This document shows, piece after piece, positions 8,737-45,105 of a stretch of 64,000 bases of DNA. The stretch comes from Pseudomonadota bacterium. Its GTDB lineage: Bacteria; Pseudomonadota; Gammaproteobacteria; Burkholderiales; Rhodocyclaceae. Below the pieces are notes generated by a model. That model had not been told where the DNA came from, did not search any database, and saw nothing but the letters and a program-made list of their open reading frames with translations. The stretch lies in the NCBI GenBank assembly GCA_018241695.1, contig JAFEDH010000007.1, positions 1-64,000 on the forward strand. The letters run 5' to 3'. Position numbers and translations under genes: made by a program. Position 1 is the first letter of the stretch; each line of letters starts with the position of its first letter.

Positions 8737-10966
<2,230 letters not shown>

Positions 10967-24883: not shown

Positions 24884-25939
24884 TCAGCGCAATGAGGCGT
24901 TGATTTTGTCCAGATTGCCCTGGCCCGGGCACAGCGCCTTGTCGCCGAGGATGCCCAGGGCGCCTTCCACGGTGTTGAGGTTGTCGTGCAGGGTATTGGG
25001 GGTGGCGTCCATGTAGAGCAGGCCGGTGACGATCTGCCCCAGGGCCTTGCGTTCCTCCAGGTAGCGCATCGCATGGATGCGGTCGGTGGGGGTATAGCTG
25101 TCGTGCAGCTTGTGCAGGCGCAGGATGGAGCCGTCGTGCTGGCGTACATCGGTCACCGAACCCGGAGCGTAGTCGGCGACGATCTCGTCCTTGCCGAAGA
25201 AGATGTCGAGCCGGTTGAGCGCGTCGTTGTGCTCGCGCACGAAGTCGTAGCTCTTGGTGGAGCCGGCATGGTTGTTGAAAGTGACGCAAGGACTCAGCAC
25301 ATCGATGAAGGCCGTGCCACCGTGCGTGAAAGCGGCCTTGAGCAGGGGCACCAGCTGGCCCTTGTCACCGGAGAAACTGCGGGCGACAAAGGTGGCGCCC
25401 ATCTGCAACGCCAAGGCGCACAGGTCGATGGCCGAGTCCTCATTCACCACGCCGCCCTTGCTTTTAGAACCCTTGTCGGCAGTGGCGGAGAACTGACCCT
25501 TGGTGAGGCCATACACACCGTTGTTTTCGACCACATACACCATTTGGACACCACGACGCATGGCGTGGGCGAACTGGCCCAGGCCGATGGAGGCGGAGTC
25601 ACCATCGCCGGAGATGCCCAGATAGAGCAGGTCACGGTTGGCCAGATTGGCTCCGGTCAGGACCGAGGGCATGCGGCCATGCACGGTGTTGAAGCCGTGG
25701 GAGTTACCCAGAAAGTAGTCAGGCGACTTGGAGGAACAGCCGATGCCCGAAAGTTTTGCGACCCGGTGTGGCTCCATGTCCAACTCGTAGCAGGTCTGGA
25801 TCAGGGCGGCGGATATCGAATCGTGGCCGCAGCCCGCACACATGGTGGAGATTGCGCCTTCGTAATCGCGCCGGGTATAGCCCAGCGCGTTGGGGGCCAG
25901 GGAGGGATGGTGCAGCTTGGGTTTGAGCAGATAGGTCAT
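24884..25939 (-). CDS. korB: 2-oxoacid:ferredoxin oxidoreductase, beta subunit
   Basis: A protein of 351 residues, thiamine-diphosphate subunit. The iron-sulfur/TPP region begins CAGCGHDSISAAL and continues SGIGCSSKSP; the TPP/magnesium motif is GISGDGDSASIG with VVENNGVYGLTKGQ downstream. With KorA it oxidatively decarboxylates a 2-oxoacid with CoA, passing electrons to ferredoxin or to KorC. It overlaps korA by 4 nt (ATGA). The set matches the 2-oxoglutarate:acceptor oxidoreductases of Azoarcus and Thauera; other 2-oxoacids such as branched-chain ones cannot be excluded. Confidence 0.9.
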   Translation of the reverse strand: MTYLLKPKLHHPSLAPNALGYTRRDYEGAISTMCAGCGHDSISAALIQTCYELDMEPHRVAKLSGIGCSSKSPDYFLGNSHGFNTVHGRMPSVLTGANLANRDLLYLGISGDGDSASIGLGQFAHAMRRGVQMVYVVENNGVYGLTKGQFSATADKGSKSKGGVVNEDSAIDLCALALQMGATFVARSFSGDKGQLVPLLKAAFTHGGTAFIDVLSPCVTFNNHAGSTKSYDFVREHNDALNRLDIFFGKDEIVADYAPGSVTDVRQHDGSILRLHKLHDSYTPTDRIHAMRYLEERKALGQIVTGLLYMDATPNTLHDNLNTVEGALGILGDKALCPGQGNLDKINASLR

Positions 25940-27786
25940 GACGCCACCTTCTTCATGGGCTTGACGTTGGATGCGGTGATACGCGAAGCGACCTCGCGGC
26001 TGATGAATTTCGCCGTGATGGTGCTGCCGTCATAGTGGAGCAGGGAGACGATTCGGGATGGGTCGATTTCGCCTTCATTGACCAGCAGGGTCTTGAGCTG
26101 GGCATCCCGGTTCTGTTCCACCAGAAACACGAAGTCGTGTTCGGCGATGAAGCGATAAACCTCGTCGTTGAAGGGGAAGGCGCGAATACGCATGGCGTCC
26201 AGATGGATGTTCTGGGCTTCAAGCTGGCTCAGCGCTTCGCGCATAGGCTCGCTGGTCGAGCCGTAGTAGAGGATGCCGGCATTGGTTTCCTGTTGTGCCC
26301 TGTGCACGACAGGAGCAGGAACGAGGCTGGCGGCGGTGCGGAATTTTTTCAGCAGGCGCTCCATGTTGGCCTGATAGACCGAACCGAGTTCGCTGTATTT
26401 GGCGTAGGGATCGCGGCTGGTGCCACGGGTGAAATAGGCGCCGCGGGCCGGATGGGTGCCGGGCAGGGTACGAAAGGGAATACCGTCGCCGTCTACATCC
26501 AGGTAGCGGCCGAAGTCCTTGCCGGCCTCGAGCATTTCGGCGGTCATGATCTTGCCGCGATCGTAGCCGCGGGTTTCGTCCCACCTGAAGGGATCGACCA
26601 GCCATTCATTCATGCCGATATCGAGATCCATCATCACGAATACCGGTGTCTGCAGACGTTCGGCGAGATCGAAGGAGAGGGCGCCGAAATCGAAGGATTC
26701 CTTGGGGTCCTGGGGAAAGAGCAGCACGTGCTTGGTATCACCATGGGAGGCATAGGCGCAGGAAAGCACGTCGGATTGCTGGGTCTTGGTGGGCATGCCG
26801 GTGGAGGGACCACCCCGCTGGATATTGAACAGTACCGACGGAATTTCGGCGAAGTAGGCCAGACCGAGGAATTCCTGCATCAGCGAAATGCCGGGGCCGG
26901 AGGTAGCGGTAAAGGCACGGGCGCCGTTCCAGCCGGCGCCAACCACCATGCCGATGGAGGCCAGTTCGTCCTCGGCCTGGACGATGGCGTAGTTGGCACG
27001 GCCGGTTTCGGGGTCGTGGCGCAACTGCTTGCAGTAATCGGTAAAGGATTCCACGAGGGAGGTGGAAGGGGTGATCGGATACCAGGCGCACACGGTGGCG
27101 CCACCGTAGACACAACCCAGGCCCGCAGCGGCATTGCCATCGATGAAAATGCGATCGCCGACGGCATCGCTGCGTTCGACATGCAGGCCGATGGGGGCGC
27201 CCACTTGCGTCCGGGCGGCTTCGTAGCCCAGGCGGACCGCCTTGTAGTTGGCATCGATCAGCTTCTGTTTGGAAGCGAACTGATCCGCGATCAACTGGTC
27301 GATCACGGCCAGCTCGATGCCCAGCAGAAAGGCCAGGGCACCCAGGTACATGACGTTCTTGAAGAGCTGCCGTTCGCGTGGGCTGGTGTATTCCCGGTTG
27401 CAGATCGCCGTCAGGGGGATGCCGAGAATGAAGATGTCGTCGCGGAATCTGGATTTGGGCAGTTCCCGGGTGCTGTCATAGAACAGATAGCCTCCGGGTT
27501 CGATCTCGGCCAGATCGCGATCCCAGGTTTGCGGGTTCATGGCCACCATCAGATCCACGCCGCCGCGGCGGCCGAGCCAGCCCTGGCCGCTGATGCGGAC
27601 CTCGTACCAGGTGGGCAGGCCCTGAATATTGGAGGGAAAAATATTCCGTGCCGAAGCCGGTACCCCCATGCGCAGGATGGCGCGGGCGAAGAGGCCGTTG
27701 GCCGAAGCCGAGCCGGAACCGTTGACGTTGGCAAACTTGACGACGAAATCGTTGGTACGCTGGAGGGGCTTGATAGTGGTGCTCAT
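25936..27786 (-). CDS. korA: 2-oxoacid:acceptor oxidoreductase, alpha subunit
   Basis: A protein of 616 residues. The N-terminal 190 residues form the gamma-type domain (NGLFARAILRMGVPASARNIFP), fused to the alpha domain with the substrate motif YPITPSTSLVESF and the pyrimidine-binding region TSGPGISLMQEFLGLA. The fused gamma-alpha layout is usual for 2-oxoglutarate-type enzymes in bacteria. It overlaps both neighbours by 4 nt, so korC, korA and korB are tightly coupled. Cytoplasmic. Confidence 0.9.
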   Translation of the reverse strand: MSTTIKPLQRTNDFVVKFANVNGSGSASANGLFARAILRMGVPASARNIFPSNIQGLPTWYEVRISGQGWLGRRGGVDLMVAMNPQTWDRDLAEIEPGGYLFYDSTRELPKSRFRDDIFILGIPLTAICNREYTSPRERQLFKNVMYLGALAFLLGIELAVIDQLIADQFASKQKLIDANYKAVRLGYEAARTQVGAPIGLHVERSDAVGDRIFIDGNAAAGLGCVYGGATVCAWYPITPSTSLVESFTDYCKQLRHDPETGRANYAIVQAEDELASIGMVVGAGWNGARAFTATSGPGISLMQEFLGLAYFAEIPSVLFNIQRGGPSTGMPTKTQQSDVLSCAYASHGDTKHVLLFPQDPKESFDFGALSFDLAERLQTPVFVMMDLDIGMNEWLVDPFRWDETRGYDRGKIMTAEMLEAGKDFGRYLDVDGDGIPFRTLPGTHPARGAYFTRGTSRDPYAKYSELGSVYQANMERLLKKFRTAASLVPAPVVHRAQQETNAGILYYGSTSEPMREALSQLEAQNIHLDAMRIRAFPFNDEVYRFIAEHDFVFLVEQNRDAQLKTLLVNEGEIDPSRIVSLLHYDGSTITAKFISREVASRITASNVKPMKKVAS

Positions 27787-29558
27787 GACTGACCCGCGTG
27801 GCTCATTTCAAGAAGGAATTTCTGCATGTCCCAGGCTCCGGTAGGGCAGCGCTCGGCGCAGAGACCGCAGTGCAGGCAGACATCCTCGTCCTTGACGGCA
27901 ACGCGGCCGGTCTGCAGGGTTTCCGAAACAAACAGTGCCTGGCCCATGTTTTCGGCGGGCGCCTTGAGGCGGGTGCGAAGCTCGGTTTCCTCACCATTGT
28001 CGGTAAAGGTGATGCAGTCCACCGGGCAGATGTCCACGCAGCCATCGCACTCGATGCACAGCTTGCTGGAAAAAACGGTCTGCACATCGCAGTTGAAGCA
28101 GCGCTCGGCTTCGGCATAGGCCAGTTTGAGGTCGAAGCCCAACTCGAACTCGCTCTTGGGGCTTTTCAGCGCCTTGGCAACGTCGAGCGTGGGAACCTTG
28201 TGGCGCAGATCGAGGGTGACCGGATTGCTGTAGCTCCACTCGTGGATCCCCATTTTCTGGCTTGCCAGGTTGGTATGGGGGGCGGGGCGCTGCCTGACGT
28301 CCCTGCCCTGACAGAACAGGTCGATGGAGACCGCCGCATCGTGGGCCTGAGCCACGGCGGTGATGATGTTCTTCGGGCCGAGGGCGGCATCGCCGCCGAA
28401 GAAGACGCGGGGCGCGGTGGATTGCAGGGTGACCTGGTCCAGTACCGGCATGTCCCATTTGTCGAAAGCGATGCCCAGGTCACGCTCGATCCAGGGGAAA
28501 GCATTCTCCTGGCCGATGGCCACCAGCACCGCGTCGCATTCCAGCAACTGATCCGGCTCTCCGGTGGGCACCAGATTGCGGCGCCCGTTCGCGTCGTACT
28601 CGGCCTTTACCTTTTCAAATACCACACCGATCAGGCGACCGGCATCGTGCCGGAATTCCTTGGGAACCATGAAGTTGATGATTTCCACGCCTTCATGCTG
28701 GGCATCCTCGCGCTCCCAGGGCGAGGCTTTCATTTCGTCATAGCCGGAACGCACCACCACCTTCACATCGCTGCCACCCAGGCGCTTGGCCGTGCGGCAG
28801 CAGTCCATTGCGGTATTGCCGCCGCCAAGCACGATGACGCGGGATGCGATCTTTTCGATATGACCGAAGGCCACGTTCGACAGCCAGTCGATGCCGATAT
28901 GGATGTGGGCGCCGGCCTCCTTGCGGCCGGGCAGATTCGCCTCGCGGCCACGCGGTGCGCCGGTGCCGACGAAAACTGCATCGTAGCCTTCGGCCAGGAT
29001 GTCCTTGAGGCTGCTGACCCAGGTGTTGAAACGGCGGGTGGCCCCCATCTCCAGGATGTAGTCCACTTCCTCGTCAATCACGGCTTCGGGCAGGCGGAAC
29101 TTGGGAATCTGGCTGCGGATCATGCCGCCGGCGCGATCCGCGCCATCGTAGATGGCGACGTCGTAACCCAGGGGAAGCAGGTCGCGGGCCACCGTGAGCG
29201 AGGCCGGCCCACCGCCGATGCAGGCGATGCGCTTGCCATTCTTCTGGGCTACGGGGGCGGGCAGACGGCTCTTGATATCGCTCTTGTGATCGGCGGCCAC
29301 GCGCTTCAGGCGGCAGATCGCCACCGGCTGCTCTTCCACCCGGCCACGACGGCAGGCCGGTTCGCAGGGGCGGTCGCAGACACGGCCCAGGATGCCGGGG
29401 AAGACATTCGACTTCCAGTTCACCATGTAGGCGTCGTCATAACGGCCGGCCGCGATCAGGCGGATGTACTCGGGCACGGGGGTATGGGCGGGGCACGCCC
29501 ACTGACAATCCACGACCTTGTGGAAATAGTCGGGATTACGCGTATCGGTTGGGTTCAC
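27783..29558 (-). CDS. korC: GltD-like FAD/NAD(P) iron-sulfur oxidoreductase subunit
   Basis: A protein of 591 residues with a GTG start after GGAGG. The N-terminus has GltD-type cysteines (CQWACPAHTPVPEY, CDRPCEPACRRG). An FAD site (ACIGGGPASLTVARDL) and a nucleotide site (VIVLGGGNTAMDCC) follow. The C-terminus carries ferredoxin-like clusters: CIECDGCVDICPVDC and CLHCGLCAERCP. It would move electrons between the KorAB core and NAD(P)H. The same three-gene set is known from Azoarcus evansii as 2-oxoglutarate:NADP+ oxidoreductase, linked to anaerobic aromatic degradation. First gene of the operon. Confidence 0.87.
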   Translation of the reverse strand: MNPTDTRNPDYFHKVVDCQWACPAHTPVPEYIRLIAAGRYDDAYMVNWKSNVFPGILGRVCDRPCEPACRRGRVEEQPVAICRLKRVAADHKSDIKSRLPAPVAQKNGKRIACIGGGPASLTVARDLLPLGYDVAIYDGADRAGGMIRSQIPKFRLPEAVIDEEVDYILEMGATRRFNTWVSSLKDILAEGYDAVFVGTGAPRGREANLPGRKEAGAHIHIGIDWLSNVAFGHIEKIASRVIVLGGGNTAMDCCRTAKRLGGSDVKVVVRSGYDEMKASPWEREDAQHEGVEIINFMVPKEFRHDAGRLIGVVFEKVKAEYDANGRRNLVPTGEPDQLLECDAVLVAIGQENAFPWIERDLGIAFDKWDMPVLDQVTLQSTAPRVFFGGDAALGPKNIITAVAQAHDAAVSIDLFCQGRDVRQRPAPHTNLASQKMGIHEWSYSNPVTLDLRHKVPTLDVAKALKSPKSEFELGFDLKLAYAEAERCFNCDVQTVFSSKLCIECDGCVDICPVDCITFTDNGEETELRTRLKAPAENMGQALFVSETLQTGRVAVKDEDVCLHCGLCAERCPTGAWDMQKFLLEMSHAGQS

Positions 29559-29711
29559 AACTCCTCCATGATCCTTGGCCCGGCCAGAACGGGCTCATAA
29601 ACAGCCGCGGCCACACCAGCAATTCCGGAAGCATGCCATTTGCGGGGACGCCCGGGACAGCGAAACAAAGCGCCGATTTTAAAACAATTCACCAAATCAT
29701 TCAGTTATTTC

Positions 29712-29723
29712 GGACGGCCGTCC
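29712..29723. promoter_or_regulatory. 12-bp palindrome between korC and tetR
   Basis: A perfect palindrome GGACGGCCGTCC lies in the 246-bp divergent region, about 80 bp upstream of the TetR gene. On the minus strand a weak promoter (CTGAAT, 17 bp, TAAAAT) toward korC lies just downstream of it. It is a candidate TetR operator; no second copy was found. Confidence 0.35.
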
Positions 29724-29804
29724 TGTTGCAGGTGGATTGCCATACCGGGTCGGCAGAACAGGGCACAATATCGGGATCCGATAACCCGCGCGACACCCAT
29801 TTGC

Positions 29805-30500
29805 ATGAACAAACCGATCAGGAAAGCAGTCATCCGCGTCGACCGGGCGCAGCGTGAGAGCGAAATCATGACCATGGCGCTCGACGTGTTTGCCGAACGG
29901 GGATATGAAGCGACCTCGATGGCGGAGATCGCAGCCCGTATCGGAGTGGTGGAGGGCACGCTGTACAAGTATTTCGAGAGCAAGCGCGAACTGCTCATCA
30001 AGGTGCTGGAAAACTGGTATGCAGCCCTGATCGACGCTTTCAGGCGCGATCTGGCCGGATTGTCCGGCGCCCGTGCACGCCTGCGCTATCTCGTCTGGCG
30101 CCATCTGCGCGTCCTGCATGAAGACCGTCTGCTGTGCCTGCTGCTGTTTCAGGAGGTGAGGGCCGAACGCGATTACTACCAGTCCGGGCTGCACCAGATG
30201 AATCGCCGGTATTCCCAGTTGCTCATGGACGTGATGCAGGAGGGGATGGACAGTGGCGAATTCCGCGCCGATGTTTCCCCTTCACTGATCCGCCATATGA
30301 TTTTTGGTGGCATCGAGCACCACGCCTGGGCGTTTCTGTGCGGCCATGGTGAACTGGATATCGAGCGACTCACCGGAGAGGTCTGTGCCATTGCGTATGC
30401 CGCCCTGATGCCGGTCGATGAATCCGCTGGTGATCCGGGCCGTATCGCGGCACGACTGGAAAATGTGGCAGCACGGCTGGAGAAACTGCTGCCCAACTAA
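29805..30500 (+). CDS. TetR family transcriptional regulator
   Basis: A protein of 231 residues. The N-terminal HTH (MALDVFAERGYEATSMAEIAARIGVVEGTLYKYF) is preceded by a basic tail; the C-terminal ligand domain is all-helical. A longer upstream frame exists, but ATG 29805 gives the family N-terminus. It lies between the divergent kor operon and the convergent atu-like operon and could control either. AtuR and LiuR-type control of terpene and leucine pathways makes an acyl-CoA ligand plausible; that is inference. Confidence 0.88.
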   Translation: MNKPIRKAVIRVDRAQRESEIMTMALDVFAERGYEATSMAEIAARIGVVEGTLYKYFESKRELLIKVLENWYAALIDAFRRDLAGLSGARARLRYLVWRHLRVLHEDRLLCLLLFQEVRAERDYYQSGLHQMNRRYSQLLMDVMQEGMDSGEFRADVSPSLIRHMIFGGIEHHAWAFLCGHGELDIERLTGEVCAIAYAALMPVDESAGDPGRIAARLENVAARLEKLLPN

Positions 30501-30544: not shown

Positions 30545-32368
30545 CTATCCGTTCTTTACCCAGCCCCGCCCCACCCAGTCGCGGGGGATTTCGATGATGA
30601 AATCCATCAGCACCTGGGCCAGCAGCTTCCCCTGGGGATCGTAGCGCAGGGAGGCCACGCCGCCACCGCCCAGTGCGTTTTCGAGAAGGAAGTTGAAACC
30701 CATCAGGCCGGGTATTTCCCAGCGGGTGACGCGACCTTGCGCGATGTGGGCAAAATAGTCCTTCACCGCGTCGGCGGTGAGCACGGCCCCGAGCAGGGGA
30801 AGAAATTCGGCGCGCCGGGCGAGAATTCCGATATTGGCGTGATTCCCCTTGTCGCCGCTGCGCCCGTAGGCCAGGGCGATGAGGGGGACACGGAGGCCCT
30901 GCCCCGGCGTGACTCGCTCAATGGCGCTACCGGAGGTTGTCCCGGCCAGGCCGGTTTCATCCGCGCAAGCTGAAGGATTCGGGGGCGTGGAGGCTGCGGG
31001 CAGTGGCACGGGCAGGCCGTCCACCTCGACGCGGATGGGCACGGCGGCTTTCGGTGTGAGAAAGGAATACAGGCGTATCAGGGGGGTGATGGCCGGGCGA
31101 CCGCCGGCGAAGCCGGTAATGCCCTGGGCCATGGAGGTCGCCGAGGCGAAGAATTCCCGCGAAAAATATTCGAGTGCGTTCCTGTCATCGTGGTGCAGGG
31201 CGACCTTGAGAATGACTTCGCGCGTCATGGCCCGCGCGTGAGGCCCCCAGTTGGCTTCCGCGCCAAGAATTTCGACATCGGTGCGACGATAGTCGGCGTA
31301 GCCGTTGCCGGTCATCTGCGCACGGGTCCGGCGCAGCAGGGCATCCGCCACGCGGCGGGCCTTGGCGATGGCATCGATGCCACCGACGAGCAGGGTGCCG
31401 GTGCAGCGAAAACCATCCTGATGAGTGACCGAGACCTTGTAATCGGCAGGTGGAGGACGGCCTTTCGCACCCCGGACCAGCACCCGGTCCGGTCCTTCCT
31501 GAGTGAGGGTCACCTGCCGGAAGTCGCAGGTCACATCGGGCAGCAGATAGACACCCGGGTCACCAATCTCATAAACGATCTGCTCGGCCACGGTTTCCGG
31601 GACGATGCGGCCACCGCTGTCCCGGGGCCGGGTGAGAACGAAGCTGCCATCCGCTGCACATTCTGCGATGGGAAACCCCATCCGGTGCCAGTCATCGGCG
31701 ACCGCTTCCCAGTCGGTGCTGATGCCGCCCGTGGCCTGGCATCCGCATTCGATCACATGACCGGCGAGGCTGCCGGCAGCGAGGAGATCGAGATCGTTCT
31801 CCCGCCAACCAAATGTATGGATCAGCGGGCCCAGTACCAGGGCGCTGTCCACGCAGCGGCCGGTCAGCACGATATCGGCGCCGGCAGCGAGGGCGGCGGC
31901 AACGGGAAAGGCGCCCAGATAGGCGTTGATGCTCCAGGGGTGTGGCGGAAAGGGTGTGGCGTCGAACATCTCGGTCACGCTCTGGGCCTGGAAGGATGCG
32001 GCCCGGTCCAGCAGATCGTCGCCTTGCACCACGCCGATCCTGAGATCGATCCCCAGTGACCGAAGACTTTGTTCGATGGCGGCCTGGCAGGCGCGCGGAT
32101 TCACTCCCCCGGCATTGGTTACCACCTTGATGCCGCGTGCCTTGATCTGCGGTGCCAGTTCGGCAATCACCCGGGGAAAGTCGGTGGCATAGCCCAGCGT
32201 CGCATCCCTGGCCCGGGCCCGGGAAAGGATGGACATGGTGATCTCGGCCAGATAATCGAGAATGAGAAAATCGATCTGGCCTGATGCCACCAGCTGGCGC
32301 GGTCCTTCGGCGCTGTCGCCCCAGAAACCGGCGCCACCGCCGATGCGGATTGTCTTGTGGTCATTCAT
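30545..32368 (-). CDS. atuA: AtuA family protein (acyclic terpene utilisation)
   Basis: A protein of 607 residues. The N-terminal DUF1446 domain (IRIGGGAGFWGDS, DFLILDYLAEITMSILSR, NAGGVNPRACQ, TGRCVDSALVL) is the AtuA core, and the last 110 residues (VPLIALAYGRSGDKGNHANIG) match the ferredoxin-fold AtuA C-terminal domain. AtuA is essential for citronellol/geranylate growth in Pseudomonas but its reaction is not firmly established; a role with hydroxylated glutaryl-type CoA esters has been proposed. Last gene of the six-gene minus-strand operon. Confidence 0.88.
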   Translation of the reverse strand: MNDHKTIRIGGGAGFWGDSAEGPRQLVASGQIDFLILDYLAEITMSILSRARARDATLGYATDFPRVIAELAPQIKARGIKVVTNAGGVNPRACQAAIEQSLRSLGIDLRIGVVQGDDLLDRAASFQAQSVTEMFDATPFPPHPWSINAYLGAFPVAAALAAGADIVLTGRCVDSALVLGPLIHTFGWRENDLDLLAAGSLAGHVIECGCQATGGISTDWEAVADDWHRMGFPIAECAADGSFVLTRPRDSGGRIVPETVAEQIVYEIGDPGVYLLPDVTCDFRQVTLTQEGPDRVLVRGAKGRPPPADYKVSVTHQDGFRCTGTLLVGGIDAIAKARRVADALLRRTRAQMTGNGYADYRRTDVEILGAEANWGPHARAMTREVILKVALHHDDRNALEYFSREFFASATSMAQGITGFAGGRPAITPLIRLYSFLTPKAAVPIRVEVDGLPVPLPAASTPPNPSACADETGLAGTTSGSAIERVTPGQGLRVPLIALAYGRSGDKGNHANIGILARRAEFLPLLGAVLTADAVKDYFAHIAQGRVTRWEIPGLMGFNFLLENALGGGGVASLRYDPQGKLLAQVLMDFIIEIPRDWVGRGWVKNG

Positions 32369-32392: not shown

Positions 32393-32848
32393 TCAGGGAA
32401 GCTCGCGCGGCACCAGGCTTTTGGTGATGCGGGCGAGGCTGGTTGCCTTGCCGTCGACCCTCACCTCGGTTTCGAGCCAGGCCATGGATTTGCCCATGCG
32501 CAGGACACGGCCGATGGCGGAGTACTCCACCGCACCGGGCAGAGGCCGCAGGTGCTGGAGGAAGATGTCGTTGGTCACCGGCAGCAGACCGGCGGGGATC
32601 CGGGTGGCCAGGGCCAGATAGGCGGGCAGTTCCACCAGGGCATTGATCACGGCGCCATTCAGGGTGCCCCATGGAGTCAGCATCTCCGCACGCGGGGTCA
32701 GCACCACTTCGGTGGCGCCGTGCTCAAGGCGCGAGAGCCGTACACCCGCCCAGGCGAAGAATCCTGTTTCCAGTGCGTAGCCGAGCATGCGTTGCTGATG
32801 TTCTGCAAGCGGAATGCTGTCGGTCGGCAGCTCGAACGATGGAGGCAT
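32393..32848 (-). CDS. Hotdog-fold thioesterase, PaaI-like
   Basis: A protein of 151 residues with a hotdog fold resembling PaaI/YbgC-type thioesterases (TPRAEMLTPWGTLNGAVINALVELPAYLAL). It probably hydrolyses a CoA ester or clears dead-end CoA esters made by the pathway. An in-frame upstream extension exists but would overlap the hydratase gene and is not conserved-looking. It lies 11 nt after the hydratase gene. Confidence 0.75.
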   Translation of the reverse strand: MPPSFELPTDSIPLAEHQQRMLGYALETGFFAWAGVRLSRLEHGATEVVLTPRAEMLTPWGTLNGAVINALVELPAYLALATRIPAGLLPVTNDIFLQHLRPLPGAVEYSAIGRVLRMGKSMAWLETEVRVDGKATSLARITKSLVPRELP

Positions 32849-32859
32849 GCTGCGATTCC

Positions 32860-33648
<789 letters not shown>

Positions 33649-33668: not shown

Positions 33669-35272
<1,604 letters not shown>

Positions 35273-35276
<4 letters not shown>

Positions 35277-35776
35277 GGCCGGGGCTCCGCAACCAGATCG
35301 AGCAGCAACGTATCACGATCGAAGCTCTGGCCTTTGTCGAAGTGAACCGCATCCACCACGCCATCACGGGGTGCGGTGATGGTGGTTTCCATTTTCATGC
35401 TCTCCATCACCAGCAGGGACTGGCCACGCACCACTGCATCGCCGGCCCGGACCAGGACGGCCACGATACTTCCCGGCATGGGGGCGACGATGTGATCCGC
35501 AGCGCCGTCCTGATGCCCGGCGGCCAGCCGGTCAAGGGGATGTTGGTAGCGCAGGGTATAGGTCGAGCCTGCGAGATGAACGTGCAGCCAGTCGCCATCC
35601 ACCGCTACCCGGACGGGTTCGCTGTGGCCGCGCACTGTCAGTATCTGGCCTCCATCATCACCGGCGCGCAGGCTGAGCGGAATGACCTGTCCTTCGAAAT
35701 GCAGCCGGTACCCTTCGCGGGCACGGGAGAGTTCGACGTTGAACTCCTGGTCATCGAGCACGAATCCATGGTGCAT
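35273..35776 (-). CDS. Separate biotin carboxyl carrier protein
   Basis: A protein of 167 residues. The C-terminal biotinyl domain contains the lysine acceptor in VMESMKMETTI; the N-terminal 85 residues form the beta-barrel BT-type domain normally buried in long alpha subunits (EGYRLHFEGQVIPLSL). In LiuD, MccA and AtuF this unit is fused to the biotin carboxylase. Here a TGA and a fresh ATG divide them, with a GGAGG site and an out-of-frame shift. The split could be natural or result from a frameshift; the carrier is otherwise intact and coupled to the next gene. Confidence 0.85.
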
Positions 35777-35777
35777 C

Positions 35778-37271
35778 TCAGTTCCTCCATGCGCCCATGG
35801 CGGCGTGCAGGTCCGGTACGGCATCGGCGGCATCGCGCATGGGGCGGGTGAACAGCGCGGCGGCGGCGAGCAGCCGCTCCATGACGGCTGCTTCGGGTTG
35901 CGGTTCGGCGGCGATCTGCGGATGCATGTCGAGGAAGCCGGTGTGAATCTCTCCGGCAAGGAAGGCCGGGTGCCGCAGCAGGCGGCGCAGGAAAGCAATG
36001 TTGGTTTTGCATCCCAGGAGAACATAGTCGGCCAGGGCGCGGTCGGCCCGTTCGATGGCTTCGGCACGGTCGCGGCCATGGACGATCAGCTTGGCGAGCA
36101 TGGGATCGAAGGCGGCCGTGATCGCCTGGCCTGTCGCAATCCCACTGTCGATGCGGATACCTGCTCCCACCGGTTCGCACAATTCAAGCACCGGACCCGT
36201 CGTGGGGGTGAAGCCCCGGGCCGGGTCTTCGGCATAAATCCGGAATTCGAAGGCATGGCCCCGTGAGGGTATTTCGGTCTGGGCATAACCCAGGGCTTCG
36301 CCGGCGGCAATGCGAAGCTGTTCACGTACCAGATCGAAGCCGGTGGTTGACTCGGTCACCGGATGCTCCACCTGCAGCCGGGTATTCATTTCCAGAAAAT
36401 AGAACCCGCCATCGCCATAGACGAACTCGACCGTGCCGGCATTCCGGTAGCCGGCGCTGCGGGCGATGCCGGCTGCGGTTTCACAGATGGTCTGGCGCAA
36501 TCCGGGCGAGAGCGCGGGGGAGGGGGCTTCCTCCACGATTTTCTGGAAACGGCGCTGCACCGAGCATTCGCGTTCATGCAGATGAACCACATTGCCGTGG
36601 GCGTCTCCCAGCACCTGCACCTCGATGTGGCGCGGGTTCTCGACATAGCGTTCGGCATAGAGACGGCCGTCACCGAAATATCGCTGGCCTTCGCTGCGTG
36701 CGCGCGCAATCGCGGTTTCCAGCTGAGAGAGATCGCGCACGATATGCATGCCCTTGCCCCCGCCGCCCGCCGCGGGCTTGATGAGCAGAGGGGCGCCGAC
36801 ATCCCGTGCGCGTTCGACAAAGGTGGCGGGATCCTCGTCCTCGATGGCGGAGGGGGCCACGGGAAAACCGCTGCGGGCCACGAAGGCGCGGGCGGTGATC
36901 TTGTCGCCCATGAGATCGATCGCATCGGGTGTGGGGCCGACGAAAATAAGGCCGGCCTTCGCCACGGCGCGGGCGAAGGCGGCATTCTCCGCCAGGAAGC
37001 CGTAGCCGGGATGGATGGCGCCCGCACCCGTGGCGAGTGCGGCGGCGATGATCCGGGCACCGTCCAGATAGGCGGCCACGGGCGTGTCGCCGTGGATCTC
37101 GATGGCCCGGTCGGCCAGCTTTACGGCCGGTGTGGCGGCATCGACCGCGTGATAAACCACGATACCCTCCAGACCCAGGGCACGGACCGTGCACAATATG
37201 CGGACAGCGATCTCGCCACGGTTGGCCACCAGCACGGAGCGGAAGGGCCAGGATTGTGTGTCGGTACGCAT
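35778..37271 (-). CDS. atuF: Biotin carboxylase subunit of acyl-CoA carboxylase
   Basis: A protein of 497 residues carrying the ATP-grasp biotin carboxylase: VLVANRGEIAVRI, GGGGKGM, HIEVQVLGD and EMNTRLQVEHPVTE. It carboxylates biotin with bicarbonate and ATP. It ends at about residue 497 where fused homologues continue into BT and BCCP domains. The start at 37271 overlaps the stop of a 9-codon reading frame; an alternative start lies at 37340. First gene of the operon BC-BCCP-CT-hydratase-thioesterase-atuA. Confidence 0.85.
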   Translation of the reverse strand: MRTDTQSWPFRSVLVANRGEIAVRILCTVRALGLEGIVVYHAVDAATPAVKLADRAIEIHGDTPVAAYLDGARIIAAALATGAGAIHPGYGFLAENAAFARAVAKAGLIFVGPTPDAIDLMGDKITARAFVARSGFPVAPSAIEDEDPATFVERARDVGAPLLIKPAAGGGGKGMHIVRDLSQLETAIARARSEGQRYFGDGRLYAERYVENPRHIEVQVLGDAHGNVVHLHERECSVQRRFQKIVEEAPSPALSPGLRQTICETAAGIARSAGYRNAGTVEFVYGDGGFYFLEMNTRLQVEHPVTESTTGFDLVREQLRIAAGEALGYAQTEIPSRGHAFEFRIYAEDPARGFTPTTGPVLELCEPVGAGIRIDSGIATGQAITAAFDPMLAKLIVHGRDRAEAIERADRALADYVLLGCKTNIAFLRRLLRHPAFLAGEIHTGFLDMHPQIAAEPQPEAAVMERLLAAAALFTRPMRDAADAVPDLHAAMGAWRN

Positions 37272-37323: not shown

Positions 37324-37342
37324 GGGTGAGTAATGCTCACCC
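37324..37342. promoter_or_regulatory. Operator copy 1, perfect inverted repeat
   Basis: GGGTGAG-TAATG-CTCACCC is a perfect 7-bp inverted repeat, lying 53 bp upstream of the biotin carboxylase start. A second, imperfect copy lies 93 bp away toward the acyl-CoA dehydrogenase gene. Size and symmetry suit a TetR-type dimer. Confidence 0.6.
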
Positions 37343-37416: not shown

Positions 37417-37435
37417 GGTGAGTTAGGCTCATTTT
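37417..37435. promoter_or_regulatory. Operator copy 2, imperfect inverted repeat
   Basis: GGGTGAG-TTAGG-CTCATTT shares the left half exactly and most of the right half with copy 1, with the same 5-bp spacer. It is 68 bp before the acyl-CoA dehydrogenase ATG, placing one copy near each divergent gene. Confidence 0.55.
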
Positions 37436-37502
37436 CATCGTGCAACAGTGCCGGCGTCAACCCCTGCTCGCCGGACTGCACTGCAACGCTTCGGAGGTTG
37501 TC

Positions 37503-38702
37503 ATGGTCCACAACAACGCCCAGAACGTCGCCCGGATTTTTTCCGGCCTGACCGACGCGGAACAGACAATCCTCGATCAGGCCGACCGCTTCGCCAGCCA
37601 CGAACTCTACCCGTTGGCGGCCCGCATGGATGCGGAGGAATGGTGGCCTGCCGACATATTCTCCAGAATGGGCAAGAACGGTTTCATGGGTGTGACGGCG
37701 CCCGAGGAATTCGGTGGTGCCGGGATGGACCTCTTCGCCAGCGGCCTGGTGTTGCAGGCGATCTCGCGCTGGAACCATGCCCTGGGGTTGTCCTGGGTGG
37801 CGCACGAAAACCTCTGCCTGCATAACATTCTGCGCAATGCCAGCGCGGAGCAGAAGACGAGGTACGCGCCGGATCTGGTTTCGGGCAGGCGCATCGGTGC
37901 CCTGGGCCTCACCGAGCCGGGCGCCGGTTCCGACGCTCTTGGCTCGATGCGCACCACGGCCCGCCGCGAAGACGATCACTATCTGCTCAACGGCACCAAG
38001 ATTTACATCACCAATGGCCCCGTGGCCGATGTGCTGCTGGTCTATGCCAAAACCGACAAGGAAAAAGGCGCCCACGGCATATCCGCCTTTCTGGTGGAAA
38101 AGGGTTTTCCGGGATTTCGCGTCGCACAGAAGCTGGTCAAGATGGGTTTCCGTGGCAGCCAGACGGCCGAACTGGTATTCGAGGATTGCAGGGTGCCGGT
38201 GGCCAATCGGGTGGGCAACGAGAACGAGGGCGTGAAGGTGGTGATGAGCGGCCTCGACCTGGAGCGCGCCATGATCTCTCCCATCTGCCTGGGCATTGCC
38301 GAGCGGGCGCTGGCGCTTTCCATCGATTACGCCAGGACCCGTCAGCAGTTCGGCAAACCCATCGCCAGCTTCCAGATGATCCAGGACAAGCTGGCCCGGA
38401 TGTACGTGGGTGTGGAGTCGATGCGTGTTTTCACCTACCAGACGTTGCGCGCCGCCAGCACGGTGGACGAGAGTGGTGGCGGGCGCGGTGAAATCCACAA
38501 ACTCTCCGCCGCCTCCGTGATGCATGCCGCGGATACCCTGAATGCGGTGCTCGACGATGCACTGCAGATCCATGGTGGCTCCGGCTATATCTGGGAATCG
38601 GAGATCAACCGTCTTTATCGTTCCATCAAGCTGCTGGAGATCGGCGCGGGTACCACCGAGGTGCGCAAGATGATCATCAGCGGCGAACTGCTCAGGACGT
38701 GA
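37503..38702 (+). CDS. atuD: Acyl-CoA dehydrogenase, isovaleryl/citronellyl-CoA type
   Basis: A protein of 399 residues, FAD enzyme introducing an alpha-beta double bond in an acyl-CoA. Signatures are LGLTEPGAGSDALG and GFRGSQTAELVFEDCRVP. At the usual glutamate of MCAD-type enzymes the sequence reads EIGAGTTEVRK, as in isovaleryl-CoA dehydrogenase, where the base instead lies in the helix segment here reading MSGLDLERAM. This fits a branched substrate such as citronellyl-CoA (AtuD) or isovaleryl-CoA (LiuA). ATG 37503 has GGAGG five bases upstream. Electrons go to ETF. Confidence 0.85.
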   Translation: MVHNNAQNVARIFSGLTDAEQTILDQADRFASHELYPLAARMDAEEWWPADIFSRMGKNGFMGVTAPEEFGGAGMDLFASGLVLQAISRWNHALGLSWVAHENLCLHNILRNASAEQKTRYAPDLVSGRRIGALGLTEPGAGSDALGSMRTTARREDDHYLLNGTKIYITNGPVADVLLVYAKTDKEKGAHGISAFLVEKGFPGFRVAQKLVKMGFRGSQTAELVFEDCRVPVANRVGNENEGVKVVMSGLDLERAMISPICLGIAERALALSIDYARTRQQFGKPIASFQMIQDKLARMYVGVESMRVFTYQTLRAASTVDESGGGRGEIHKLSAASVMHAADTLNAVLDDALQIHGGSGYIWESEINRLYRSIKLLEIGAGTTEVRKMIISGELLRT

Positions 38703-38707
38703 TCGGC

Positions 38708-39589
38708 ATGACCGGTACGGATGGGGCGCCGGGTGATCCGGCCGCCACGGATTGCGTAGAAGCGCTGTGGGCCGCGCCGACGGCCTTTCGCGCCGATCTG
38801 TTCAAGGATCGGGTTGTCCTGGTTTCAGGTGGCGGCAGCGGCATTGGCCGGGCCATCGCCCTGCTCTTTGCCCGACTCGGGGCCAAGCTTGCCATCTGTG
38901 GCCGCACGCCGGGGAAGCTCGAGAAAGTCGCCGCATTCTGCGCCTCCAGGGGAGTGAAGATACTGACCCAGCCCACCGATATCCGCCAGCCCGAGCAGAT
39001 CGAAACCCTGCTGGCGCGCATCGACGCCGAACTGGGGCCCCTTAATATCGTGGTGAACAATGCCGGCGGCCAGTTTCCCCAGCCTGCGATTGATTTCAGC
39101 CACAAGGGCTGGAACGCGGTCATCAACAACAATCTCAATGGCACCTGGTACATGATGCAGGCCGCGGCCCGCTACTGGCGCGACCACCAGCGGCCTGGCA
39201 ACATCGTGAACATCGTTGCTCCCATGGCGCGCGGCATGCCCGGTGTGGCGCACACCGTGGCGGCCCGGGCCGGTGTGGTGGGGGCCATGAATACCGTGGC
39301 TATTGAATGGGCGCCCCTGGGCATCCGTGTCAACTGTCTGGAACCCGGCCTCACTGCAACCGAGGGGCTTTCAATCTATCCGGCGGCGGCGCAGCAGGAG
39401 TTCCCCCGGGCCAATCTTTTCAAGCGCCCGGCCACGCCGCTGGAAGTGGCTGAGGCCGCCGTCTTCCTCGCCAGCCCCGCCGCGAGTTTCATTACGGGCA
39501 TCACCCTGCCGGTGGACGGCGGTTACCGGCTCTGGGGCGAGTTGTGGACGGCGGGCCGGCCCGACTACTTCAAGTTTCCGGCGGAGTAG
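38708..39589 (+). CDS. SDR family protein, enoyl-CoA-reductase-like
   Basis: A protein of about 293 residues. The cofactor motif is VVLVSGGGSGIG, with NNAGG and DGGYRLWG near the C-terminus. The classical YxxxK site is replaced: HTVAARAGVVG appears where YSASKAGVVG is usual. This pattern matches 2-enoyl-CoA reductase/2,4-dienoyl-CoA reductase relatives (PECR, DECR) rather than alcohol-type SDRs. In the cluster it takes the atuB or atuG position. A GTG at 38699 (4-nt overlap with the dehydrogenase stop) is an alternative start. Confidence 0.78.
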   Translation: MTGTDGAPGDPAATDCVEALWAAPTAFRADLFKDRVVLVSGGGSGIGRAIALLFARLGAKLAICGRTPGKLEKVAAFCASRGVKILTQPTDIRQPEQIETLLARIDAELGPLNIVVNNAGGQFPQPAIDFSHKGWNAVINNNLNGTWYMMQAAARYWRDHQRPGNIVNIVAPMARGMPGVAHTVAARAGVVGAMNTVAIEWAPLGIRVNCLEPGLTATEGLSIYPAAAQQEFPRANLFKRPATPLEVAEAAVFLASPAASFITGITLPVDGGYRLWGELWTAGRPDYFKFPAE

Positions 39590-41735: not shown

Positions 41736-41847
41736 AATTGGCAATTTTTGCATAGTTTGCGTCCACCAGCGCCATAGCATTGCCGGAGTCGGCGACCTAG
41801 GATTGAGCATCCCTCGTTTTCTCCGCATTCCTTTTCGGAGCGTCGCC

Positions 41848-44800
41848 ATGACCGATCTTTCCGTCGCCACCAAGCTGGCCCCCTACAAGCCCAGGAACAA
41901 GGTGCGCTTCGTCACTGCCGCCTCTTTGTTCGACGGTCATGACGCCTCCATCAACATCATGCGACGCATCATCCAGAGCACCGGTGCCGAGGTGATCCAC
42001 CTGGGTCACAACCGTTCCGTGGAGGAGGTGGTCAATGCGGCCCTGCAGGAGGACGCCCACGGCATCGCCCTTTCCTCCTACCAGGGCGGCCACGTCGAAT
42101 ATTTCAAGTACATGATCGACCTGCTGCGAAGCCGCGGCGGCGAGAACATCCAGGTCTTCGGCGGTGGTGGCGGGGTGATCGTGCCCGCCGAGATCCGTGA
42201 ACTGCATGCCTACGGTGTGACCCATCTGTATTCGGTGGAGGATGGCCAGAAGATGGGCCTGCAGGGCATGATCAACGACATGGTGCAGCGCTGCGATCTG
42301 GACCTCGCCGTCCATGCGCCCACCGATCTTGCCGCCATCGAAACCGGTGACCGCCGTGCCCTGGCCCGATTGATTACCGCCCTCGAGGCCGAGGCCGTAC
42401 CCGCTGCCCTCAAGCTGGCTTTGATCGAGAAGGCTACCCGGCGCACCGTGCCCACCCTGGGGATCACCGGTACCGGCGGTGCCGGCAAGTCCAGTCTCAC
42501 TGACGAGCTGATCCGCCGCTTCCGCCTCGACCAGGGCGACAAGCTCAGGATCGCCATCATTTCGATCGATCCCTCACGCAAGCGCACCGGCGGCGCCCTG
42601 CTGGGCGACCGCATCCGCATGAACGCCATCGAGCATCCCAACATCTACATGCGCTCCCTGGCCACCCGCGACACCGGCAGCGAAATCTCCAAGGCCCTGC
42701 CCGAGGTGATCGCCGCCTGCAAGGTGGCGGGCTTCGATCTGGTGGTGGTGGAGACATCGGGTATCGGCCAGGGTGACGCGGCCATCGTGTCCCACGTGGA
42801 TCTTTCCATCTATGTGATGACGCCCGAGTTCGGCGCCGCCAGCCAGCTCGAGAAGATCGACATGCTGGACTTCGCCGATTTCGTTGCCATCAACAAGTTC
42901 GACCGGCGCGGCGCCAGCGATGCCCTGCGCGACGTGCGCAAGCAATACCAGCGCAACCGCGAGCTGTTCAACCAGGCACCGGAGCGGATGCCCGTCTTCG
43001 GCACCATGGCCTCCCGCTTCAATGACGATGGTGTCACGGCCCTGTACCAGGCCATCGCTCCGCGCCTGGCCGAATTTGGCCTGATCCTGGAGGGCGGACA
43101 CCTGCCCATCGCGGGTGTCAGGCATTCAACCCAGGGCCGCGCCATTGTGCCTGCCGAGCGTTCACGTTACCTGGCCGAGATTGCGGACTGTGTGCGCGGC
43201 TATCACAAGGACGTGCAGCAGCAGGCCACCATCGCCCGCGAGCGCCAGTCCCTGCGCATCGCCCGGGCGCTCTTCGAAAAGAGTGGCAGGCCGGTTTCCG
43301 GTTTCGACGCGATGATCACTGCCAAGGATGGCGAGCTTTCCCCGCACAGCCGCAGTCTGCTAGCCCGCTGGCCGGAACTGCAACAGGCGTATGCGGGCGA
43401 CGAATACGTGGTGAAGATCCGCGACAAGGAGCTTCGCACGGCGCTGACCTACGAATCACTTTCCGGTACCCGCATCCGCAAGGTATCCCTGCCCCGTTTC
43501 GAGGATGATGGCGAGATCCTGAAATTCCTCCTGCGCGAGAATGTGCCCGGCGATTTTCCTTATACCGCCGGCGTTTTCGCCTTCAAGCGCGAGGGCGAGG
43601 ATCCGACCCGCATGTTCGCCGGCGAGGGCGATGCTTTCCGCACCAATCGCCGTTTCAAGAAGGTGTCCGAGGGCATGCCCGCCCATCGCCTGTCCACCGC
43701 CTTTGACTCGGTCACCCTCTACGGCTGCGATCCGGACCGGCGCCCCGATATCTACGGCAAGATCGGCAATGCCGGTGTTTCCATCGCCACCCTGGATGAC
43801 ATGAAGGTGCTCTATTCAGGTTTCGATCTGTGCGCGCCCTCCACCTCGGTGTCGATGACCATCAACGGCCCAGCACCCATGATCCTGGCCATGTTTTTCA
43901 ACACCGCGCTCGATCAGAAACTCGACAGATTCCGTGCCGACAACGGCCGGGATCCCTTGGAGGAGGAGATCACAAAGATCCGTGAACGGGTGCTCTCCAA
44001 CGTGCGCGGTACGGTACAGGCCGACATTCTCAAGGAGGACCAGGGGCAGAACACCTGCATCTTTTCCACCGAATTCGCCCTCAAGATGATGGGCGACATC
44101 CAGGAATTTTTCGCACATAACCAGGTGCGCAATTTCTATTCGGTCTCCATCTCCGGCTACCACATCGCCGAAGCCGGCGCGAATCCGGTCAGCCAGCTCG
44201 CCTTCACCCTGTCCAACGGCTTTACCTATGTCGAGAGCTATCTGGCGCGGGGCATGCACATCGACGATTTCGCACCCAACCTCTCCTTCTTCTTTTCCAA
44301 CGGCATGGATCCGGAGTATTCCGTCATTGGCCGTGTCGCCCGCCGCATCTGGGCTGTGGCGATGAAGCACAAATATGGCGCCAGCGAGCGCAGCCAGAAA
44401 CTCAAGTACCACATCCAGACCTCCGGCCGTTCGCTGCACGCGCAGGAGATGGACTTCAACGATATCCGCACCACCCTGCAGGCGCTGATCGCCCTGTACG
44501 ACAACTGCAACAGCCTGCACACCAACGCCTTCGACGAAGCCATCACCACTCCCACCGAGGATTCGGTGCGCCGGGCCATGGCGATCCAGCTCATCATCAA
44601 CCGCGAGTGGGGGCTGTCAAAGAACGAAAATCCGCTCCAGGGTGCTTTCATCATCGATGAGCTGACCGATCTGGTGGAGGAGGCCGTGCTCAAGGAGTTC
44701 GAGGCCATCGCCGCCCGTGGCGGCGTCCTTGGCGCCATGGAAACCGGCTACCAGCGCGGCAAGATTCAGGAAGAGTCGATGTATTACGAGCACAGGAAGC

Positions 44801-45105
44801 ATGATGGCTCCTATCCCATCATCGGCGTGAATACCTTTCTCAATCCGCATGGCGCGGCGATTCCCGAAGAAATCGAACTGGCCCGCTCCAGCGAGGAAGA
44901 GAAGCAGTCCCAGCTGACCCGTCTGGCGGCGTTCCAGGGCCGCAATCCGGCCGAGACCGCAAGGTGGCTACAGAAGCTCAAGGACACGGTGATTGCCAAT
45001 GGCAACGTCTTTGTCGTATTGATGGATGCCGTGCGCCACTGTTCCCTGGGGCAGATCAGCAACGCCCTGTACGAGGTGGGCGGGCAGTACCGGCGCAATA
45101 TGTAG
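41848..45105 (+). CDS. icmF: Fused isobutyryl-CoA mutase
   Basis: A protein of 1085 residues. The B12-binding domain is first ([17 protein letters not shown]), the MeaI-like GTPase chaperone domain next (P-loop GTGGAGKSS, switch [16 protein letters not shown]), and the mutase domain follows (FPYTAGVF, then [19 protein letters not shown]). It interconverts isobutyryl-CoA and n-butyryl-CoA using adenosylcobalamin; some members also act on pivalyl-CoA. FPYTAGVF distinguishes ICM from methylmalonyl-CoA mutase. No cobalamin riboswitch is visible in the short leader. Monocistronic, beside the divergent AraC gene. Confidence 0.95.

Follow-up and report, generated by a model that had tools for sequence, protein, structure and literature searches.

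The window, by which we mean the whole analysed stretch of 64,000 nucleotides, contains on its reverse strand three adjacent genes that together carry the domains of a biotin-dependent carboxylase. The first (35778-37271) encodes a biotin carboxylase (BC) subunit of 497 amino acids with the Pfam domains Biotin_carb_N, CPSase_L_D2 and Biotin_carb_C. Its reading frame runs from an ATG at 37271 to a final sense codon reaching 35781, followed by TGA at 35780-35778; an alternative GTG start at 37340 is also permitted. The second gene (35273-35776), with an ATG at 35776 and a TGA stop at 35275-35273, encodes a carrier subunit of 167 amino acids with a Biotin_lipoyl domain. The third (33669-35276) encodes a carboxyltransferase (CT) subunit of 535 amino acids with a Carboxyl_trans domain. 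The BC, biotinyl and carboxyl transferase domains each scored above the Pfam cut-off, in the first, second and third open reading frame, respectively. The biotin attachment motif MESMKM is present in the carrier, its lysine being K128, and A98, M100, P101, E125, M127 and K128 of the carrier were invariant in 27 aligned sequences. The source genome also encodes BirA.

At the BC/carrier junction (35777-35780) the BC stop codon TGA and a single further base (35777) precede the carrier ATG, and the carrier stop overlaps the CT start codon as ATGA. A Shine-Dalgarno-like GGAGG (35784-35788, reverse strand) is placed 7 nt upstream of the carrier ATG and is composed of the BC codons TGG AGG, which specify Trp-Arg. 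The description in an earlier note on this DNA, that a TGA and an ATG divide the chain with a good ribosome site, therefore holds.

The genes downstream on the same strand encode an enoyl-CoA hydratase family protein (32860-33648; Pfam ECH_1), a hotdog-fold thioesterase family protein (32393-33064; Pfam 4HBT, TIGR00369), whose frame overlaps the hydratase gene and whose start codon is uncertain, and an AtuA family protein (30545-32368; Pfam AtuA, 471 bits, and AtuA_ferredoxin). The hydratase probably acts on the carboxylated product, and the AtuA protein is the probable lyase of a 3-hydroxy-3-alkylglutaryl-CoA intermediate. A passage in PMC4847356 assigns to AtuA the cleavage of the carboxylated, hydrated intermediate, and an excerpt of PMC9973270 gives the same lyase role as speculated. 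On the forward strand lie a gene for a TetR family regulator with uncertain start codon (29640-30500; Pfam TetR_N), a divergent acyl-CoA dehydrogenase gene (37440-38702; Pfam Acyl-CoA_dh), the product of which likely makes the beta-branched enoyl-CoA, and an SDR family oxidoreductase gene (38699-39589; Pfam adh_short_C2). The last two are recurrent neighbours in relatives. The label 'atu-like', used in the earlier note, is fair as to neighbourhood: Pfam matches in the window place AtuA, hydratase and acyl-CoA dehydrogenase genes beside the carboxylase.

The divergent promoter region holds two candidate operators (37325-37341 and 37417-37433) with the palindrome GGTGAG-N5-CTCAYY. The pattern was derived from these same two sites, which are its only exact matches in the source genome. 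With two mismatches allowed, 8 further genome sites were found, compared with 6 in all for a reversed-pattern control. The candidate operators perhaps belong to the TetR protein encoded at 29640-30500. Near the operon a fused isobutyryl-CoA mutase/GTPase IcmF is encoded at 41803-45105 (1957 bits versus an NCBIfam cut-off of 1500), and adjoining the operon at 24884-29558 are genes with domains of the pyruvate-ferredoxin-oxidoreductase type, grouped with a flavin/iron-sulphur oxidoreductase.

To describe where the alpha chain is divided we refer to the BT domain of fused enzymes, which according to a portion of PMC4673880 combines a helix and a hook loop with an eight-stranded barrel, one strand being absent in PaMCC. 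The same portion describes a Trp at the end of the hook that is mostly conserved in GCC and MCC and is buried at the CT domain interface. Residues 1-448 of the window BC form the BC domain, and the tail 449-497 contains a predicted BT helix (461-474) and the hook. The AF2 model of BC has a pLDDT of 90.3 and includes helix 461-474, with the hook (484-497) at low confidence and poorly defined. The carrier model (pLDDT 92.5) shows eight strands followed by a biotinyl fold; the barrel (residues 2-78) is not preceded by a helix. The helix and the eight-stranded barrel of a BT domain are thus both present in the predicted folds, divided over two chains; in Pfam the carrier matches positions 43-115 of the 118 of BT_MCC_alpha with a score of 22.3, below the cut-off of 31.

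In fold alignments, where a range stands only for the two outermost residues aligned, the BC and carrier models covered residues 7-499 and 500-662 of M. smegmatis MCC alpha, 47-541 and 551-717 of human MCC, and 59-557 and 559-728 of human PCC. On 9yx0_A, 417 BC residues were aligned, as were 157 carrier residues with an rmsd of 15.6. The long structural matches of the carrier have rmsd values of about 15-17, which we put down to the mobile biotinyl domain. In the sequence alignment the window MGAWRN lies where many fused chains have DGWRLN or similar, and the first residues of the carrier open the barrel. In the Pseudomonas chain of locus L134, taken to be of atu type, the Trp at this position is numbered 485 or 488 according to which start codon is used, close to Trp483 reported for GCC. 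Since the two predicted folds tile a fused MCC or PCC alpha chain, BC and carrier are, on these models, jointly equivalent to one alpha subunit, with the break falling between hook and barrel. The earlier note had set the division exactly before the BT domain; Pfam, alignment and folds instead place it inside this domain, after helix and hook.

Related loci were obtained by a protein scan of genome contigs. The best 80 of at least 566 confirmed relatives were used, a sample that leans to near relatives, and a locus was called split or fused according to whether the BC and carrier matches lay in the same open frame. This gave 43 split and 29 fused loci, and 8 without a carrier match in the available DNA; L105 was fused in one count and had no carrier match in another, the BLAST settings being different. 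In a quick tree of 114 rows the window BC belonged to one clade of 36 (SH-aLRT 99), consisting of the window, 33 genome loci out of the best 80 (L068-L097, L099, L102 and L103) and the plasmid loci L148 and L149. The clade includes near-copies (L148 and L087, L080 and L081, L073 and L078), and both the BC tree and the CT tree discussed below are of the quick type, without bootstrap.

Every one of the 36 clade members encodes BC and carrier in separate genes. Of the 33 genome loci, 29 have a carrier ATG or GTG no more than 4 nt from the BC stop, no such start codon being found at this distance in L071, L088, L092 and L103; in L149 the annotated carrier begins 84 nt past the BC stop. The carrier frame relative to BC takes all three possible relations: the 35 loci besides the window divide into 19, 13 and 3, a pattern that neither a frameshift nor a conserved slip would give. 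On the plasmids of Sphingopyxis macrogoltabida and Tistrella mobilis the genes are annotated as separate (PLSDB/RefSeq). Of 398 genomes in a phylum sample, 2 had such a CT at E values up to 1e-200, one being the source genome; in the other (L150) BC ends in WRN and the carrier open reading frame is separate. No split carrier of this kind was recognised among the matches listed for 100 other genomes of the genus, family and order. The earlier note had proposed a comparison of homologous loci, and 35 related loci indeed display the same two-gene arrangement, which goes beyond chance. The CT genes of L102 (9944-11567) and L140 (717-2349) match in two frames and the L088 carrier (9605-9958) was matched only from query residue 55, which are probably record errors or decay.

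The neighbourhood varies among loci, which may mean more than one substrate in the clade. Among the 33 genome loci drawn from the best 80 of at least 566 relatives, 15 yielded an AtuA match, several of these loci being cut by contig ends. In some relatives (L069 and Tistrella) an AMP-binding ligase gene and branched-chain ABC transport genes adjoin the carboxylase, as for an imported acid.

More distant split relatives, such as L109, L111, L119, L126 and L131, have their cut at much the same position. Judged from their sequences, they show that cutting near this position extends beyond the clade, to loci with a Phe at the substrate gate discussed below in 6 of 7 cases. This recurrence would agree with the split state being the older one and the fused MCC, GCC and PCC alpha chains a later development, and a three-subunit ancestor of CoA carboxylases was proposed by Lombard and Moreira in a part of PMC3199775. 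Such an origin would be compatible with a natural three-subunit enzyme. We nevertheless regard it as rather unlikely, since the BC tree is poorly supported in its deep part (support 10) and since each half holds part of one domain, which is simpler to explain by fission.

BC, BCCP and CT are also separate chains in the three-subunit acetyl/propionyl-CoA carboxylases (archaeal; Chloroflexus BC and BCCP). In the archaeal-type enzymes BC stops after the BC domain and the BCCP is not known to have a BT barrel. The match of the Chloroflexus BC (8hz4, 469 aa) to the window BC ends at query residue 455. Two-subunit pyruvate carboxylase has a different cut site and a different CT. It resembles the window enzyme in being a usually single-chain biotin enzyme that occurs naturally in pieces (PDB 5ks8; described in a part of PMC5059739).

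Comparison of the CT subunit with solved structures gave PaMCC beta as the best match (621 bits), and only 434 bits with GCC beta. The enzyme further resembles MCC (LiuB/LiuD; PDB 3u9r, 3u9s, 9yx0) in that the MCC alpha chain of 9yx0 is the best BC match and that BT helix, hook and barrel follow in identical order. It differs from MCC in having alpha in two pieces, cut inside BT, in carrying Ala at the position of the gate Phe, and in belonging to a separate CT clade. With GCC (AtuC/AtuF; PDB 5ikl) it shares a small gate residue (Gly162 in GCC, Ala163 in the window) and the context of AtuA, hydratase and acyl-CoA dehydrogenase genes, whereas GCC alpha is a single chain. The CT of L134, classed as atu-type by its gene spacing and pocket sequence rather than by annotation, lacks the longer MCC-type loop before the gate; the window CT keeps this loop.

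In a quick CT tree the clade sequences formed one branch (31 main and 2 second CT genes among 70 rows, SH-aLRT 100), apart from an MCC group (99) and from the L134/L141 group (98). The tree contains 70 of 110 rows, near-copies and others having been dropped, and L083 was omitted from the CT sets as its CT is cut by a contig end to less than 300 aa. Descent from GCC was dismissed on this tree, which places the window CT outside the group holding the presumed atu-type CT of L134.

One position of the CT pocket, the gate, corresponds to Phe191 of MCC. This column was assigned via a GCC-type sequence and a three-residue insertion reported in a portion of PMC4673880. Ala163 occupies it in the window CT, and the main CTs of the clade (n=35, L083 omitted) have Ala in 26, Gly in 8 and a gap in 1. 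The 29 MCC-like CT genes drawn from genomes of the family and order, irrespective of the form of the neighbouring alpha gene, without exception have Phe. The CTs of fused loci in the genome scan (n=27) have Phe in 21, Tyr in 3, Ala in 1 and a gap in 2, those of the other split loci (n=7) Phe in 6 and Tyr in 1, and second CT genes in clade loci (n=7) Phe in 5 and Gly in 2. In locus L077 (1463-6713) a single pair of BC and carrier genes precedes two CT genes of the clade; the gate loop is shortened in the first of these CTs.

According to section 8 of PMC4673880, the F191G mutation in MCC conferred activity on geranyl-CoA while activity on 3-methylcrotonyl-CoA was essentially lost. In view of this effect and of the Ala or Gly at the gate, we expect the clade to act on a beta-branched enoyl-CoA longer or bulkier than 3-methylcrotonyl-CoA, the gate being one pocket position among many. 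The same mutant weighs against an ordinary 3-methylcrotonyl-CoA carboxylase of leucine breakdown that is simply split, as do the Ala at the Phe191 position of the window, the separate CT clade, and the AtuA and SDR neighbours. An MCC role would agree with PaMCC beta being the best CT match and with the source genome, in which no other MCC-like CT was found (the next matches have 32, 35 and 31% identity); an MCC-like CT occurs at E values up to 1e-150 in 53 of the 100 other genomes of the genus, family and order. On balance we consider such a role improbable. Separately, a steroid or bile-acid side-chain role was considered on account of L075, a MAG of Novosphingobium sp. Chol11, and was set aside as the literature search returned no titles or abstract starts that bear on it.

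The C-terminal end of BC is strongly conserved. The mean share of the commonest residue in the 36 BC sequences is 0.70 for residues 1-448, 0.47 for 449-490 and 0.73 for the last seven (491-497). W495 is present in 36/36 sequences, and G493, R496 and N497 each in 35/36, giving a G-x-W-R-N end. BC terminates in WRN in 33 of the 36, the remaining ends being WRP, WKN and WRNA. The codons of this motif are also biased: the terminal Arg is encoded by AGA or AGG in 23 of 35 cases, whereas these two codons account for 94 of the 1383 other Arg codons in the 36 BC genes, and AGG alone is used in 11 of 36 versus 60 of 1383 (Fisher p 5e-7, relatedness ignored). From these sequences TGG-AGR-AAY seems to double as protein end and as ribosome site for the carrier. 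CGN codons are used for the terminal Arg in 12 of 35 sequences and the motif is kept there, which argues that W-R-N is maintained for the protein too.

Tight junctions such as TGATG could also serve programmed frameshifting or stop readthrough, which would yield a short BC as well as a complete fused alpha chain; two loci, L094 and L102, indeed have the carrier ATG in frame behind the BC stop. We consider this very unlikely, since the frame relation (19/13/3) is not conserved and a ribosome site precedes the carrier ATG in the window. That the alpha gene is really fused, and looks split through a recent one-base frameshift, which the earlier note had offered as an alternative, or through faulty assembly, has a practically negligible probability: a single base would suffice to join the frames in the window and fused MCC alpha genes occur in genomes of the same family and order, but the fused relatives fall outside the BC clade of the window, which is split throughout, shows each of the three frame relations, and has a conserved BC end together with biased codon use at the carrier start. 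The other alternative in that note, a naturally three-subunit carboxylase, is supported by the split in the entire clade, the varied frame relation, the conserved BC end and the separate annotation of the plasmid genes.

We therefore think it quite probable that the locus encodes a three-subunit biotin-dependent carboxylase of a beta-branched enoyl-CoA, in an atu-like operon, with its alpha subunit cut inside the BT domain and with three proteins in place of the customary two. In such an enzyme the tail helix of BC would insert noncovalently into the eight-stranded barrel of the carrier, as suggested by the separate chain models, and the terminal W-R-N of BC would dock on CT. As in MCC, it would be the BT domain, here reassembled, that keeps BC and biotin attached to the CT core. 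BC would carboxylate the biotin on K128 of the carrier, after which CT would hand the carboxyl group on to a substrate that exceeds 3-methylcrotonyl-CoA in size. Translation of the three genes is probably coupled via their tight junctions, with the codons of W-R-N acting as the ribosome site of the carrier.

A more tentative proposal, which we hold to be plausible yet somewhat short of probable, is that the clade constitutes a third class beside MCC and GCC, characterized by an enlarged pocket, a helix donated into the barrel of another subunit and a G-x-W-R-N clip onto CT. If so, the separate carrier means that a single BC with its carrier could work with two or more CTs, L077 being an example of such a gene arrangement.

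In the parts of PMC4673880 and PMC3199775 that deal with these enzymes, the alpha subunit of MCC and GCC is treated as one chain and BT as the part joining alpha to beta; in the latter source, Lombard and Moreira give both enzymes as a BC/BCCP alpha and a CT beta. The statement in the earlier note that the alpha subunit is a single chain is thus correct for the enzymes of those papers, and does not extend to the present clade or to some distant relatives. A literature search covering titles and abstract starts of open-access papers yielded no description of a split MCC or GCC; other publications may contain one. The member genes are already known from public databases, some of them annotated as separate, and what is added here is the clade, the site at which the chain is divided, the terminal BC motif and the altered pocket.

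The natural cut within BT provides ready pieces to probe how BT, hook and biotin carrier cooperate, and the short C-terminal motif may be a portable clip in the building of carboxylases. A reader who expects a fused alpha chain may mistake the split genes for broken ones; the recurrence of the same cut in many bacteria looks like a real design and not like a sequencing error. The clade marks operons in Alphaproteobacteria, Burkholderiales, Desulfobacteraceae and others, of which the predicted substrate is bulkier than that of MCC.
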